64,000 bases of DNA. Origin: Luteibacter jiangsuensis (GTDB lineage: Bacteria; Pseudomonadota; Gammaproteobacteria; Xanthomonadales; Rhodanobacteraceae). How positions within the stretch are numbered: position 1 is the stretch's first letter; every line of letters begins with the position of its first letter. The notes beneath the pieces are model-generated. The model was not told the origin of the DNA. It saw only the letters and a list, made by a program, of their open reading frames with translations, and did not search any database. Positions 18,637 to 26,998 of this stretch are shown one piece after another. The DNA is taken from assembly GCF_011742555.1 (NCBI RefSeq), contig NZ_JAAQQR010000001.1, positions 620,001 to 684,000 on the forward strand, read 5' to 3'. Position numbers and translations under genes: made by a program.

Positions 18637-20499
18637 ATGACGAATCGAACGAAAGCCATGAAACTCGGCGCCTGCATCGGCCTCCTGCTGGCGAGCGGCA
18701 TGGCGACGGCGCAGGCCAAGGAAGACACCGGCGTCTGGAACGGCATGAAGGCGCCCCTGACGACGCCGTGGACGAGCAAGGTCTCGCCGGGCAACGCACT
18801 GCCCGAGTATCCCCGGCCGCAACTCGCGCGCCCCTCCCTGGAGCATCCTCGCTGGATGAACCTCAACGGCCTCTGGGAGTTCGCAGCCACCGACGGGCGC
18901 ACGGAGCCGTCCTTCGGTCATCCGTTGAAGGACAAGGTGCTGGTGCCCTACCCCATCGAGTCGGTGCTGTCGGGCATCCAGAAACATGCCGACTTCATGG
19001 TCTACCGCAGGACGGTGGACATCCCCTCGGACTTCACCGCGCACGGCCAGCACGTGATGCTGAACTTCGGAGCCGTGGCCCAGGAAGCCACCGTCTACGT
19101 GAACGGCAAGCAGGTGGCGAGGCACACGGACGGGTACACCTCGTTCGCGGCCGACATCACCGCGGCGCTCAAGCCGAAAGGCCCGCAGGAAATCGTCGTC
19201 GCCGTGCACGCGCCCGTCGACGGTGCCAACGTCATGGTCGGCAAGCAGCGGTTGAAACCGGAAGGCATCTTCTACACCGCGGCTTCGGGCATCTGGCAAT
19301 CGGTGTGGCTCGAGCCGGTGGCCGCCACCAGCCTGGCACAGCTGGATTTCACCGCCACGCCGAGCCTGGACGCGTTCACCGTCACGGCGAAGACGCAGGG
19401 CGACGCCAACGACGCCACGCTGCGCGTGACGGCCTATGCCGACGGCAAGGCGGTCGGCGAAGCGAGCGGCCCTGCCGGCAAGCCGATGCGTCTTGCCATC
19501 GCCCAGCCCCGGCTCTGGAGCCCGACGGACCCGTTCCTCTACACGTTCAAGGCCACCCTGGAGAAAGGCGGACAGCGCGACGAAGTCACCAGCTATGCCG
19601 GCATGCGTACCGTCGCCCTCGCCAATGTGGGCGGCGTCAACCGCATCGTGCTGAACGGCAAGCCGACCTTCCTGCTGGCCACGCTGGACCAGGGCTACTG
19701 GCCCGACGGCCTGCACACGGCACCGACCGACGAGGCGCTCAAGTTCGACATCCAGAAAACGAAGGACTTCGGCTTCAACACCATCCGCAAGCACATCAAG
19801 GTGGAACCGGCGCGCTGGTACTACTGGGCCGATCGCCTGGGCCTGATGGTGTGGCAGGACATGCCCGCGCTGCCCAACGGCCGCAACGACAAGCTCAGCG
19901 ACGCGGACAAGGCGCGCTTCCGCACGGACGTCTCGGCCATCGTCGAGCAGCTCAAGGGCGAGACCTCGATCATCGGCTGGATTCCCTTCAACGAAGGCTG
20001 GGGACAGTGGAGCATTCCTGCCGCGGCGGAACTGGCGAAGCAGATCAAGCAGCTCGATCCGTCCCGCCTCGTCAACGCGCGCAGCGGACTCAACTGCTGC
20101 GACACCAAGGGCGACCCGCATGCCGGCGACGTGTACGACGTGCACGATTACCAGGGCCCGGGGCTGCCCTCGCCCGACGCCACGCGCGCGTCGATGGACG
20201 GCGAACACGGCGGGCTGACGCTGAATGTGCCCGGCCACGTGTGGCCGAATTCGGCGATCAATCCCTACGGTGCCGTGAAGGACGCGACCGCCCTCACCGA
20301 CGGCTACGTGGCCAATACGGCGGTGCTGCGTGACAAGGGACCGGCGAAGGGCATGTCGGGGGCCGTCTACACCCAGATCACCGACGTCGAAGGCGAACAC
20401 AACGGCCTGTACACCTACGATCGCAAGGTCGAGAAGATGGACGAAGCCAAGGTGCGGGCCATCAATGAGGCGACGATTCGCGCCTTCGAAGCTCGCTGA
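18637..20499 (+). CDS. Secreted glycoside hydrolase family 2 enzyme
   Basis: A 620-residue GH2 protein: signal peptide (residues 1-26, ending ATAQAKE), sugar-binding jelly-roll (about 70-230, with NLNGLWEF and YRRTVDIP), immunoglobulin-like domain (about 235-330) and TIM barrel. The acid/base Glu is in WIPFNEGWGQ; a Glu in SMDGEHGG is the nucleophile candidate. GH2 covers beta-galactosidase, beta-mannosidase and beta-glucuronidase; beside two GH92 enzymes, a role in trimming N-glycan core sugars is reasonable but unproven. GGGAAGAACGG precedes ATG 18637. Its 3' end overlaps the convergent cyclase gene by 38 bases. Confidence 0.88.
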   Translation: MTNRTKAMKLGACIGLLLASGMATAQAKEDTGVWNGMKAPLTTPWTSKVSPGNALPEYPRPQLARPSLEHPRWMNLNGLWEFAATDGRTEPSFGHPLKDKVLVPYPIESVLSGIQKHADFMVYRRTVDIPSDFTAHGQHVMLNFGAVAQEATVYVNGKQVARHTDGYTSFAADITAALKPKGPQEIVVAVHAPVDGANVMVGKQRLKPEGIFYTAASGIWQSVWLEPVAATSLAQLDFTATPSLDAFTVTAKTQGDANDATLRVTAYADGKAVGEASGPAGKPMRLAIAQPRLWSPTDPFLYTFKATLEKGGQRDEVTSYAGMRTVALANVGGVNRIVLNGKPTFLLATLDQGYWPDGLHTAPTDEALKFDIQKTKDFGFNTIRKHIKVEPARWYYWADRLGLMVWQDMPALPNGRNDKLSDADKARFRTDVSAIVEQLKGETSIIGWIPFNEGWGQWSIPAAAELAKQIKQLDPSRLVNARSGLNCCDTKGDPHAGDVYDVHDYQGPGLPSPDATRASMDGEHGGLTLNVPGHVWPNSAINPYGAVKDATALTDGYVANTAVLRDKGPAKGMSGAVYTQITDVEGEHNGLYTYDRKVEKMDEAKVRAINEATIRAFEAR

Positions 20500-22264
20500 G
20501 CCCGTCTACCGATTCGTCGCCTTCGACGACGCGATTCCGGCCCATGTGCTTGGCCTTGTAGAGCGCCGCGTCCGCCGCGCGGCGCAGGCGTTGCAGGTCA
20601 TGGCCCATGGTGTCGGTGCAGGCCACCCCGATGCTGACGGACAGCGGCACCACCACGCCGTCCGTCACCAGCGGGGACGACGCCAGCGCCACGCGTATGC
20701 GCTCGGCCACCACCCGGGCCTGCAATCTCGGCGTGTCCATCAGCAGGATGCCGAACTCCTCGCCGCCGAGACGGCCCAGGAGGTCGCCGTCGCGCAGTTC
20801 GCCCTTGATGATCGCCACGGCGTGTTTCAGCACGGCATCGCCGACGGCGTGTCCGTGTGCGTCGTTCACCTGCTTGAAGTGATCGAGGTCGAGGAACACG
20901 AGGCAACCGTCGCCGAGCCGCCGTTCCAGAACGCGCAGCAGGCGCTCGGCTTCGCTCATGAAATGCTGGTGGTGGAAGATCCCGGTGAGGCCGTCGCACG
21001 ACGACAGCCATTTGAAGCGAAGCTGCGAGCGCTTGATCCGTACCATCCAGAACACGATGGACAGGAGCAGGAGCGCCATCACCACCATGTAGAGCCGGCT
21101 CGTTTCCACCGCCTTTGCGTCCAGCGCCTTCTGCAACCGCAGGATGCGGTTCTCCTTGCTCAGCCCTTCCGTCTCCAGCTTCTCCGCGCGGAAATGCTGT
21201 CGCGCGGCTTCGTAGGCCGCGTTCCGCACGTTGGCATCGCGCAGGTAGCCCTGGTCCTGGACGACGTAGCGCTCGTAGTAGTCCAGCGCGCTGGCGTAGT
21301 TCCCCTCGTTCTTCTCGATGGTGTAGAGGATGCGGTAGGCGAAGCGCAGCGCCTCGTTGACATCGCCCGGATGGCCGAGGGCCACCGTTTCGAGGGCGGC
21401 CTTGCGCGCCTCGTCCATTCGGCCGAGCTGCTCGTAGATCTGCGCGCGCTGGCTGGCCAGGCTGATGATGTGCGGAAAATACTTGCTCGCCTGGATGACG
21501 GGAGCGATGCGCTGCACGCTGGCCAGCGCTTCGTCCAGTCGCCCCTCGTCGAACAGACGGTCCACGAGGATCAGAGAGGCGGTATTGGCGAAGATGGGCT
21601 GACCGGCCGCCTTGCAGGTGTCGATGGTGCCGAGCAGCTCAGGGCTGCGGGCGGTCAGCACCCTTGCGCCTTCGAGTGCCGTCACTTTCTGCACCATGGC
21701 CTGGCAGGTCGACTGCCCCGGCGGCGTGGCCTTCAGCATCATGTCCGCGTATTGCAGGCCCTGATCGGGCTGCCCCGCGAATGTCAGCATCTGTGCCAGA
21801 TTCGCGAGGAGCACGAAGCGGGCCTCGGGATCGGCGACCGACGGCAAGGTATCGGCCGCGCGCGTGGCCATGGCGTACGCTTCCGCATACTTGCCCTGCT
21901 CGCTCAGGTTGTTCATCAGCATGGCGATGGCACGCGTGCCGATGGGATCGTCGTCGGCACGGGCCATCACCCGTCGCAGGCCCGCCTCCGCATCGGGATA
22001 ACGGCCTTCGTAATTCGCTTCCCAGGCGTCCAGGAACTGCAGGTAGCGTTTTTCGTTTGCATTGAGGTCGGCCACGTCCCGGTGGAGGTCCGCGAGCAGG
22101 GTCAGGAACCGTGGGTGATCCTTCGTACGCAGCGCGTCGACGCGTGCCACCCGCCCGGGAGTGGCAACCTCCGTCGCGGCATGGACGCAGCCCAGCTGCG
22201 CCCCCAGGGCGAGCCCCATCCATAGAAGGAAGGAGCGCGCTTGCGGGAAGGAACCGACCGGCAC
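20462..22264 (-). CDS. Diguanylate cyclase with periplasmic TPR-like sensor
   Basis: A 600-residue protein with a signal-type N-terminus (LLWMGLALGAQLGCVHA) and a long helical repeat region of TPR character (about 50-370). A coiled coil follows, then one transmembrane helix (about 400-420, LYMVVMALLLLSIVFWMV) and a GGDEF domain. The active site reads GGEEF and the inhibitory I-site RDGD lies five residues before it, so the enzyme should make c-di-GMP with product inhibition. The start is GTG 22264, 12 bases after the stop of the borosin-like peptide gene, so it is probably cotranscribed with it. Its end overlaps the convergent GH2 gene. Confidence 0.9.
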   Translation of the reverse strand: MPVGSFPQARSFLLWMGLALGAQLGCVHAATEVATPGRVARVDALRTKDHPRFLTLLADLHRDVADLNANEKRYLQFLDAWEANYEGRYPDAEAGLRRVMARADDDPIGTRAIAMLMNNLSEQGKYAEAYAMATRAADTLPSVADPEARFVLLANLAQMLTFAGQPDQGLQYADMMLKATPPGQSTCQAMVQKVTALEGARVLTARSPELLGTIDTCKAAGQPIFANTASLILVDRLFDEGRLDEALASVQRIAPVIQASKYFPHIISLASQRAQIYEQLGRMDEARKAALETVALGHPGDVNEALRFAYRILYTIEKNEGNYASALDYYERYVVQDQGYLRDANVRNAAYEAARQHFRAEKLETEGLSKENRILRLQKALDAKAVETSRLYMVVMALLLLSIVFWMVRIKRSQLRFKWLSSCDGLTGIFHHQHFMSEAERLLRVLERRLGDGCLVFLDLDHFKQVNDAHGHAVGDAVLKHAVAIIKGELRDGDLLGRLGGEEFGILLMDTPRLQARVVAERIRVALASSPLVTDGVVVPLSVSIGVACTDTMGHDLQRLRRAADAALYKAKHMGRNRVVEGDESVDGLSELRRRESSPH

Positions 22265-22276
22265 GATACCCGACCG

Positions 22277-22588
22277 TCAGGCCGCCGACGAATCGTCTGC
22301 GTCGTCGTCGTGGCGCTCGTTTGGTTGCTCGTCGCCGTTGTCGCCATCATCGCCCGGCTCGTCGGGATCCACTTCCTCGTGGCCGCCGGTCTGGCTCTGA
22401 TGTTCGACATGCATGTGCTTGAGACCCAGCTCCGCGGTGAGCACGGTGCTGTCGCCGTGCGCCGCCATGTCCAGGAGCCCGGGCGAGGCGCCGTCCGCCT
22501 CCAGTGCACGGGCCAGTTCCTCGGGCGAGGCGCGGCGCAGACTCGCATCGCGTCCAATGGCTTCCAGCAGTTCAACGGTATCGCGCAT
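22277..22588 (-). CDS. Candidate split-borosin precursor peptide
   Basis: A 103-residue peptide. Residues 5-60 look like a small all-helical domain (VELLEAIGRDASLRRASPEE, then LARALEADGASPGLLDMA) of the kind found as the borosin-binding domain in trans-acting precursors such as SonA. Residues 57-70 are beta-prone and His-rich (LKHMHVEHQSQTGG), and the tail (about 70-103) is almost all Asp, Glu, Gly and Asn. It follows the methyltransferase gene by 67 bases and has a strong RBS (AGGGGA). The likely modified core is the stretch after residue 57; the exact methylated residues cannot be told. If not a RiPP substrate it is an uncharacterised acidic protein. Confidence 0.75.
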   Translation of the reverse strand: MRDTVELLEAIGRDASLRRASPEELARALEADGASPGLLDMAAHGDSTVLTAELGLKHMHVEHQSQTGGHEEVDPDEPGDDGDNGDEQPNERHDDDADDSSAA

Positions 22589-22600
22589 GATCTTTCCCCT

Positions 22601-22616
22601 GTGCTTGTAAAAGCAC
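22601..22616 (-). other. Small hairpin before the precursor gene
   Basis: GTGCTT and AAGCAC form a 6-bp stem with a 4-nt loop, 12 bases above the precursor ATG. Its place between enzyme and peptide genes could favour a stable short precursor mRNA. Confidence 0.4.
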
Positions 22617-22655
22617 GGCAGGTCGAACTGGCGACCCGCCGCGCGGTTTCCGGTT

Positions 22656-23501
22656 TCACGCCGCGACGGCAGGCTCCGCGCCCGTGCCGTACACCGCGTC
22701 CAGTGCGTCGAGACGAGCGCGCATCGCGACATTCGGCTTGAGCGCGTGTGCGGGCGGGAGCACCAGCGTCTCCTGCCCGGTGAACTCCGCTGCGGCAAAT
22801 TCGCGCAACGGCATGCGCTGAATGTGCGGACCTTCGATCGGCAACGTCGGCGCGCGGTACACGATGACCTCGTGGTCGGCGGGATAGTCGGCGCACAAGC
22901 GCTCGACCAGCAGTTCGCGATAGGCGTCGGGGGTGCGGAACCGCCCGAGCGAACGGTCGCCCACGACACCGAGTTGCCAAAGGATCACGTGCCCGGTGGT
23001 GTCGAGCGTGCGTTCGAAGAAAAGCAGCTGGCTGGCTTCCAGATGCTGGCACCCGATGCGTCCCGGGTCGATGCCGAGGTCGGCGTAGAGGCAGTCCTCG
23101 GCGGACACGCCCGGCTCCATGTACGCCGGATAGCCTTCGGCGCGCGCGAGTTCGATGACCTTGTGCGGCGACCAGGCGAAAATGCCCGGGTGCCCGTAGA
23201 ACACCGCGCATACCCGACGTCCCGCGCGCACTTCGGCAATCATCAACTCGACCCATTCGCGATAGGTCTTCATGCGCGACTTGCCCGGACGGTAATACGG
23301 CTGGAGGCTGCGGACATCGGGATGAAGGCGCCGCAGCCACAGTTCCACCACGTAATCCGAAAGCGCAGCGAACACGACGTCGGCCGTTTCGATGCAGTTG
23401 CGCGCCAGCGGCGTGAGATGGGAGCCGAGAGTGATGCCCATGCCCACGCAGGTGATGCTGCCGGAACGGGTTTCGGACGAACTCGGAGCGGATGCGTTCA
23501 T
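22656..23501 (-). CDS. Tetrapyrrole-methylase-fold alpha-N-methyltransferase (borosin type)
   Basis: A 281-residue SAM-dependent enzyme of the tetrapyrrole methylase superfamily. The SAM-binding loop is ITCVGMGITLGSHLT near the N-terminus; YGHPGIFAWSPHK and MEPGVSAEDCLYADLGIDP are class hallmarks. Unlike porphyrin or cobalamin methylases it carries Tyr70, Arg76, Tyr80 and Tyr102, spaced 6, 4 and 22 apart, which is the spacing I recall for the catalytic Tyr66/Arg72/Tyr76/Tyr98 of the fungal borosin enzyme OphMA. No peptide is fused to its C-terminus; the candidate substrate is the next gene. Start ATG 23501 lacks a good RBS, and a longer frame from 23591 is possible. Confidence 0.82.
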   Translation of the reverse strand: MNASAPSSSETRSGSITCVGMGITLGSHLTPLARNCIETADVVFAALSDYVVELWLRRLHPDVRSLQPYYRPGKSRMKTYREWVELMIAEVRAGRRVCAVFYGHPGIFAWSPHKVIELARAEGYPAYMEPGVSAEDCLYADLGIDPGRIGCQHLEASQLLFFERTLDTTGHVILWQLGVVGDRSLGRFRTPDAYRELLVERLCADYPADHEVIVYRAPTLPIEGPHIQRMPLREFAAAEFTGQETLVLPPAHALKPNVAMRARLDALDAVYGTGAEPAVAA

Positions 23502-25644: not shown

Positions 25645-26922
25645 TCAGAGCCGGCCGTCCACCGCGTCGCGCGGCAGCACGTATTTCACATCGTAGACCA
25701 CGGCGTCCGGCTTGCCGAACGCGCGGATGCCGGCAGCGCCGAGCTCGTGGAACTGCCTGTGCGCCACGGCGATGACGATGGCGTCGTACTCGCCGGTCCC
25801 CGGCGCGGCGACGGTGCGCAAACCGTAAACCTGTTCGGCTTCGGCGGCGTCGACCCAGGGGTCGTACACGTCGATCGTGGCGTTGTAGGTTTTCAGCGAA
25901 GCGATGATGTCGACGACACGCGTGTTGCGCAGGTCGGGGCAGTTTTCCTTGAAGGCGAGACCGAGCACGAGCACTCGCGCGCCGACCGGATTCAGGCCCT
26001 TGCACACCATGAGCCGGATCAGCTCGCCGGCGATGTACGGCCCCATGTGGTCGTTGGTGCGTCGCCCGGCCAGGATCACGTCGGGATGGTGGCCGACTTC
26101 CTGCGCCTTGTGCGTCAGGTAGTAGGGATCGACGCCGATGCAATGGCCGCCGACGAGGCCCGGCCGGAAGGGAAGGAAGTTCCACTTCGTACCGGCGGCC
26201 TCGAGCACTTCCAGCGTGTCGATGCCGAGCTTGTTGAAGAGGATGGCGAGGTCGTTCACCAGGGCGATGTTGAGGTCGCGCTGCGTGTTCTCGATGACCT
26301 TGGCCGCCTCCGCCACCTTGATGCCGCTGGCCTTGTACGTGCCCGCGGCAATGATGCTGCCGTACAGCGCATCGACGAAGTCGGCGGTTTCGGGACTGGA
26401 GCCGGAGGTGACCTTGCGGATGCTGGTGACCCGATGCTGCTTGTCGCCGGGGTTGATGCGCTCGGGGCTGTATCCCACGAAGAAGTCGCGATTGAAGATC
26501 AGGCCCGAGGTGCGTTCGAGGATCGGCACGCAGACTTCCTCGGTGCAGCCGGGATACACGGTGGATTCGTAGACCACGACGTCGCCCGGTTCGAGCACCT
26601 TGCCAAGCGATTCGCTTGCCCGCGTCAGCGGCGCGAGATCGGGACGCTTCGCGCTGTCGATGGGCGTGGGCACCGTCACGATGAAGACGTTGCAGGAGCG
26701 AAGGTCGTCGATACGGTCGGTGTACGTCAGCGCGCCGGCCTCCGCGAGCGATGCCGCGTCCACTTCCAGCGTGCGGTCGTTACCGGCGCGAAGTTCGCCG
26801 ATGCGCGAGGCATCGATGTCGAAACCGACAGTGGGATACCGCTTGCCGAATTCGACCGCCAGGGGAAGCCCCACGTAGCCGAGCCCGACGATGCCGATCC
26901 TTACCTTGTCCAGCTGCTGCAT
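25645..26922 (-). CDS. Nucleotide-sugar 6-dehydrogenase (TviB/WbpO-like)
   Basis: A 425-residue UDP-sugar dehydrogenase that oxidises C6 in two NAD-dependent steps. The N-terminal Rossmann motif is GIVGLGYVGLPLAVEFG, the catalytic Cys is in GGHCIGVDPYYL and the Lys/Asn helix in KVIENTQRDLN. The strings resemble UDP-HexNAc dehydrogenases of the TviB/WbpO group more than plain UDP-glucose dehydrogenase, although the partner epimerase looks glucuronate-like, so the substrate is uncertain. Start ATG 26922 (MQQLDKVRIG) was preferred to ATG 26952. Confidence 0.88.
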   Translation of the reverse strand: MQQLDKVRIGIVGLGYVGLPLAVEFGKRYPTVGFDIDASRIGELRAGNDRTLEVDAASLAEAGALTYTDRIDDLRSCNVFIVTVPTPIDSAKRPDLAPLTRASESLGKVLEPGDVVVYESTVYPGCTEEVCVPILERTSGLIFNRDFFVGYSPERINPGDKQHRVTSIRKVTSGSSPETADFVDALYGSIIAAGTYKASGIKVAEAAKVIENTQRDLNIALVNDLAILFNKLGIDTLEVLEAAGTKWNFLPFRPGLVGGHCIGVDPYYLTHKAQEVGHHPDVILAGRRTNDHMGPYIAGELIRLMVCKGLNPVGARVLVLGLAFKENCPDLRNTRVVDIIASLKTYNATIDVYDPWVDAAEAEQVYGLRTVAAPGTGEYDAIVIAVAHRQFHELGAAGIRAFGKPDAVVYDVKYVLPRDAVDGRL

Positions 26923-26998
26923 CGGGCTTCCATCGAGGATGTGTGGAACCAACGGGCAAGCCTAGCGGATCGCCCGCGCCGGGCGCCAGAGGCCGGAC

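Follow-up and report, generated by a model that had tools for sequence, protein, structure and literature searches.

A split borosin gene pair next to a predicted TPR-GGDEF membrane sensor in Luteibacter jiangsuensis: a candidate peptide signal

Split borosins, in which the methylase and the peptide that it modifies are separate proteins, are treated as a class in three papers (PMC8429565; PMC11395268; PMC11285071). The closest described system is SonM/SonA, a type IV split borosin of Shewanella oneidensis that consists of a methylase and a short peptide (Miller et al. 2021, PMC8429565). According to that paper, the leader of SonA is a five-helix bundle comprising residues 1-53, the core spans residues 62-71 and is methylated at positions 63 and 65 (Leu63 and Ile65), and SonM mutants at Y58, R67, Y71 and Y93 are slower. 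The same paper describes split borosins as natural-product pathways and states that, in 2021, the end product was not known for any of these pathways. In the fungal borosins, such as OphMA, enzyme and core are fused in a single protein. Later work reportedly describes the product of a bacterial borosin and a peptidase that acts on one of the precursors. In a different setting, the RRNPP receptors of Gram-positive bacteria combine a TPR domain with an adjacent small peptide gene. Since split borosins are already published, an enzyme-peptide pair alone would not be new in kind.

The locus considered here lies in a stretch of 64,000 nucleotides from Luteibacter jiangsuensis, called the window below, and comprises three consecutive genes with the following features:

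22656..23501, minus strand: borosin-type alpha-N-methyltransferase (SonM-like), 281 aa, with active-site residues Y70, R76, Y80 and Y102
22277..22588, minus strand: precursor peptide, 103 aa, with a borosin-binding leader, a core and an acidic tail
22430..22588, minus strand: leader (borosin-binding domain) of the peptide, residues 1-53, with five predicted helices, from a profile and a model
22376..22414, minus strand: conserved core island of the peptide, residues 59-71, of which 62-71 correspond in register to the SonA core, from the peptide alignment
22280..22375, minus strand: acidic tail of the peptide, residues 72-103
20462..22264, minus strand: TPR - transmembrane - GGDEF protein, 600 aa, a putative receptor, starting 12 nt past the peptide stop

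The first two genes, separated by 67 nt, had been proposed as a split borosin pair in a sequence-only reading. Both open reading frames lie where that reading placed them, on the minus strand, and encode an enzyme of 281 and a peptide of 103 residues. The split borosin assignment is supported by the homology to SonM, by a tree and by the register of the peptide. In effect, enzyme and peptide very probably form a working split borosin pair. The organism was called a xanthomonad, which holds in the wide, order-level sense (Lysobacterales), but the family is Rhodanobacteraceae. Beyond that reading, gene order and homology indicate that enzyme and peptide belong to a larger set of genes whose order is conserved, the third of them encoding the predicted TPR-GGDEF membrane protein.

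The closest solved relative of the window methylase is SonM, with 45% identity (114 of 251 aligned residues) and an E value of 2.7e-70 in a phmmer search of PDB sequences. In the same search, dbOphMA and OphMA were matched at about 2e-49 and MroMA at 2e-43, in line with the relationship to OphMA that had been proposed, while the top non-borosin match, a precorrin-2 C20-methyltransferase, reached only 4e-5. Tyr70, Arg76, Tyr80 and Tyr102, as well as the YGHPGIF and MEPGVSAED motifs, are all present in the enzyme as the earlier reading had listed them. The spacing of the four residues, 6, 4 and 22, equals that of OphMA, as proposed, the OphMA residues named in PDB titles being Y66, R72, Y76 and Y98. 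The same four residues align with Y58, R67, Y71 and Y93 of SonM, a match at four of four active-site positions that requires one 3-residue gap in the alignment, with a spacing of 9, 4 and 22 in SonM. Thus, the locus shares methylase homology and active-site spacing with the fungal fused borosins, but in the window enzyme and core are separate proteins. The nearest named locus, in Luteibacter sp. SG786, has an enzyme 97% identical to that of the window. In Pfam, TP_methylase is the only family above its cut-off, and all nine NCBIfam matches are far below theirs.

The position of the enzyme within the TP methylases was addressed with a tree of 44 rows, which included the window, 10 further rows of its lineage (lineage 1) and 11 other methylases that came from a TP_methylase family search and that we take, by our own reading of their names, to be of the cobalamin, sirohaem and RsmI types. 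In this tree, for which the program gave a long-branch warning and in which OphMA rows are absent and locus L148 was dropped, 33 borosin-like rows, including SonM, are separate from the 11 others with a support of 98/96, and the 11 rows of the window's lineage form a single clade (100/99). The enzyme does not, then, group with cobalamin or sirohaem methylases, as its earlier placement in the borosin branch implied. With an AlphaFold model of the enzyme (mean pLDDT 71), Foldseek returned SonM and OphMA as the top matches, with TM-scores that do not exceed about 0.5. Because an overlay of the model on SonM gives a TM-score of only about 0.48-0.52, support for the fold rests on sequence.

The peptide resembles a borosin precursor. 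Its residues 1-53 align with the SonA leader without gaps, and G45, D46 and L50 coincide, in an otherwise weak sequence match. A profile of related peptides scores 16.8 bits against SonA and at most 8.2 against 5000 shuffled versions of it. Applied to the ORFs of 25 loci, the same profile also detects, at an E value of 6.6e-7, a peptide similar to SonA in L151, which is the locus called L201 below. The profile and the ungapped register are in keeping with the proposed likeness to a borosin-binding domain, but neither phmmer with the window peptide nor a profile of 21 relatives found SonA in the PDB. A small helical domain, as suggested in the earlier reading, is predicted at low confidence. 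An AlphaFold model places helices at residues 4-13, 15-18, 22-31, 36-43 and 47-53 and none after 53, but its mean pLDDT is 58 and it has no significant structural match; with this weak model, the SonA leader is the fifth of nine Foldseek matches, at an E value of 7.4.

At the positions of the SonA core, 62-71, the window peptide reads EHQSQTGGHE. The core had been proposed to be HMHVEHQ, which does overlap the start of the core, but the conserved stretch extends over residues 59-71. Among the 110 of 121 peptides that match the start motif of lineage 1 and were used for the profile and alignment, the commonest letters are M at 59, P at 62 (E second), Q at 63 (H second), S at 65 (T second), Q at 66, T at 67, H at 70 and E at 71, and the residues that follow are rich in D and E. 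The letters of the tail vary more freely than those of the core island. In the tails of four loci (L011, L013, L014 and L037), runs of five or six His stand among Asp, and metal binding is possible there. In summary, the window resembles SonM/SonA in its active-site residues, in the helical leader predicted here and in the core register. It differs in its 32-residue acidic tail and in its polar core, whereas SonM methylates Leu63 and Ile65 of SonA. We infer that the window core is methylated.

The protein encoded by the third gene has a GGEEF site, an RxxD site five residues before it and a strong transmembrane peak at about residue 392; a weaker peak at 532 falls within the GGDEF domain. Its first 30 residues look signal-like by eye, with no N-terminal peak above the threshold. 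The central transmembrane peak is found in 12 of the 13 correctly framed sensor proteins compared, and an N-terminal peak in 10 of the 12 other than that of the window. A first survey of the genes around 33 loci showed a TPR-GGDEF protein in 31 of them. The window's GH2, AHSA1, ArsR, epimerase, UDP-sugar dehydrogenase and P4H genes, six further neighbours, each recurred in only 2 to 6 of these loci and were rejected as parts of the system. No peptidase or exporter was found among the window's neighbours, which are the genes that were compared across loci. The gene adjoining the epimerase gene, at 25645-26952, is similar to TviB, the UDP-N-acetylglucosamine C-6 dehydrogenase, above the NCBIfam cut-off.

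The association was then counted in 101 distinct methylase loci of the window's own family, 99 of which have enough DNA for a count of the TPR part. In 92 of the 99, the TPR part is encoded on the same strand as the enzyme and no farther than 1.3 kb downstream; it lies within 5.5 kb on either side in 96. L114, L038 and L089 have the enzyme but no such sensor near. The GGDEF part is also present in all 86 of those 92 loci that have 2.9 kb or more of DNA downstream. A peptide is found near the enzyme and on its strand in 99 of the 101 loci. At the level of genomes, homologues of the enzyme (E up to 1e-20) occur in 162 of 233 Rhodanobacteraceae, the peptide (E up to 1e-5) in 156 and the TPR ectodomain in 158. 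The enzyme (E up to 1e-25) was found in 9 of 369 genomes sampled from the class and in 15 of 398 sampled from the phylum, each including the window's own genome. The enzyme-peptide pair is thus common in the family, as 155 genomes carry both, while seven have the enzyme alone and one the peptide alone. For enzyme and ectodomain, the corresponding numbers are 157 with both, five with only the enzyme, one with only the ectodomain and 70 with neither, and the single genome that has the ectodomain without the enzyme also has the peptide. These lists were compared by eye, and neither the co-occurrence nor the locus counts are independent, since the genomes of a family share ancestry.

The presence of a tail on the peptide goes closely with the sensor gene. 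Among 113 lineage-1 peptides, all 88 that lie directly before a sensor gene have a tail and all 25 that lie elsewhere lack one, a tail being defined as at least 12 residues beyond residue 72. The p value of Fisher's test is about 1e-25, which overstates the association because the rows are related; the 25 tailless peptides derive from seven loci. In this test, repeats were removed, and peptides over 200 aa, those that did not fit the motif (such as a truncated one in L179) and those with too little downstream DNA were left out. In the first tail count (89/0 and 1/27), the single exception was L082, where the peptide overlaps the sensor match by 3 nt. The same division is observed within mixed loci: in L179, L180, L182 and L183, the peptide adjacent to the sensor has a tail and the other intact peptides are tailless. 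Two of these loci, both from the window's genus, carry arrays after one methylase, with 12 peptide genes in L179, one of which lacks its start, and seven in L180; the leaders are similar, whereas the cores vary around PQ..Q.

A similar arrangement is found further away. Of 20 distant methylase loci, 19 were examined with wide flanks, L148 being left out as it has only 1.5 kb downstream, and in 11 of the 19 a TPR-type protein with a GGDEF or histidine kinase output is encoded downstream. The output is GGDEF in nine (L188, L195, L196, L197, L199, L200, L201, L203 and L204), and HisKA, HATPase and receiver domains take its place in L190 and L205. TPR repeats exceed the Pfam cut-off in L188, L190, L201, L203, L204 and L205 and are below it in the other five, of which L195-L197 match the window ectodomain in tblastn. 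No such protein was found downstream in the remaining eight loci (L189, L191-L194, L198, L202 and L206). A small ORF lies between methylase and sensor in 10 of the 11 loci, L188 having none. The peptide profile matches those of L195, L196, L197 and L201, two of them at E values of 0.002-0.004, and that of L203 is identical to SonA at 31 of 66 residues; the others were judged to be peptides by eye. L201 is the orthologue locus of SonM/SonA, its methylase and peptide being 77% and 62% identical to SonM and SonA, respectively, and it has a TPR-GGDEF gene downstream, as the window does.

Sensor and peptide are also linked where a methylase is not near. All three ectodomain homologues in the window's genome have a borosin-leader peptide just upstream. 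The stretches upstream of 40 further ectodomain genes, taken from 74 matches on the basis of the ectodomain and regardless of a GGDEF part, contain such a peptide in 25 cases, including L226, where it ends 636 nt from the ectodomain gene. In 12 of these 25, the 2.5 kb of upstream DNA examined has no methylase. No peptide was detected upstream of the other 15 genes, which include the sensors of L212 and L213, close orthologues of that of the window (66% identity). Four further hand-picked loci (L208-L211) all have one.

Because related bacteria repeatedly have a sensor-like gene next to peptides of this kind, the peptide may act as a signal. Specifically, we lean slightly towards an explanation in which the window encodes a split borosin pair whose methylated core is the ligand of the adjacent TPR-GGDEF sensor. 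The helical leader of the peptide would dock onto the methylase dimer, and the enzyme would transfer methyl groups from SAM to amides in the backbone of the core, around residues 62-71, much as SonM does at positions 63 and 65 of SonA. A protease, none of which was found here, would then free the core, which would get to the periplasm and be bound by the TPR ectodomain, and binding would alter the synthesis of c-di-GMP by the cytoplasmic GGDEF domain. For cleavage, export, ligand binding and c-di-GMP output taken together, we consider the chances to be even. The sequences show the homology, the active-site residues, the register, the conserved gene order, the linkage of peptide and sensor also where no methylase is near, and the exchange of the output domain; the last two appear to be the strongest points for a ligand. 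The weakest are the sensors that have no detected peptide and the missing export route, as no signal sequence is evident in the peptide and its passage to a periplasmic domain therefore lacks an explanation. Compared with the RRNPP receptors, the likeness lies in the TPR domain and the adjacent small peptide gene. The window-type TPR part, however, is predicted to lie outside the inner membrane, with binding proposed here, the output is a cyclase or a histidine kinase, and an enzyme that would modify the peptide is encoded alongside.

Other explanations have to be weighed against a ligand for the sensor. An ordinary split borosin could make a secreted metabolite, with the TPR-GGDEF protein tuning its production or the response to it through c-di-GMP without binding the peptide. 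The description of split borosins as natural-product pathways in PMC8429565 agrees with this, and the arrays of L179 and L180 resemble a product library. Nevertheless, such a role seems rather unlikely in view of the 12 of 40 further ectodomain genes that have a peptide and no methylase in the 2.5 kb upstream, and of the ectodomain region that is kept in L190 and L205 though the output is a histidine kinase. Alternatively, the peptide might not be matured, and the whole protein might act in the cell or envelope through its methylated core and its acidic or His-rich tail, for instance by binding metal. This would account for tails that are long, acidic and, in the four loci named above, rich in His, and for the fact that no peptidase recurs among the window neighbours compared; but 25 peptides keep the core and have no tail, and the tail is freer to vary than the core island, so we consider it quite improbable. 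Finally, the TP methylase might modify tetrapyrroles or rRNA and the small ORF be unrelated, as could be supposed from the Pfam result, in which TP_methylase alone is above the cut-off. The PDB searches and the tree, the latter with its long-branch warning, lead us to reject a sirohaem or cobalamin methylase, and 155 of the 162 family genomes with the enzyme have peptide genes, which leaves this last explanation with hardly any credibility.

In a wider form, the ligand reading would apply to Gammaproteobacteria in general: backbone-N-methylated ribosomal peptides would be dedicated ligands of membrane sensors with a TPR ectodomain and feed into c-di-GMP control. The sensor would be a diguanylate cyclase or a hybrid histidine kinase, immediately preceded by a borosin-leader peptide gene of its own, and the methylase would be encoded beside the peptide gene or elsewhere in the genome. 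We put this forward tentatively, as somewhat short of an even chance. A GGDEF domain has already been drawn with some borosin architecture, since the legend of Figure 1 in PMC11395268, the part of that paper that bears on this, explains 'GGDEF, GGDEF-sequence-containing domain'. A literature search that did not cover the split-borosin catalogues Imani 2022 and Lee 2024 returned no text joining 'borosin' and 'diguanylate cyclase', and no link between the two was seen in broader searches. If the proposal is true, split borosins, perhaps including SonA, would gain a function in peptide signalling. A sensor gene that remains next to the peptide gene, in many cases with no methylase in the vicinity, and that retains its ectodomain as the output domain changes makes the question of function experimentally answerable.

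Some individual loci may also be mentioned. The genome of the window has a second split borosin locus (L034/L111, G000:C14, about 409-412 kb), with a methylase 58% identical to that of the window, a peptide with the core GKFFGIQLDQDEP and an acidic tail, and a TPR-GGDEF gene downstream. At a third site in the same genome (L207, G000:C11:348000-355500), a borosin-leader peptide (E 4e-14) directly precedes a TPR-GGDEF gene; both are far removed from either methylase of the genome, and this peptide is possibly methylated in trans. In Rhodanobacter sp. DHB23 (L049), several TPR-GGDEF genes are arranged around one methylase, and three peptides each precede their own sensor.
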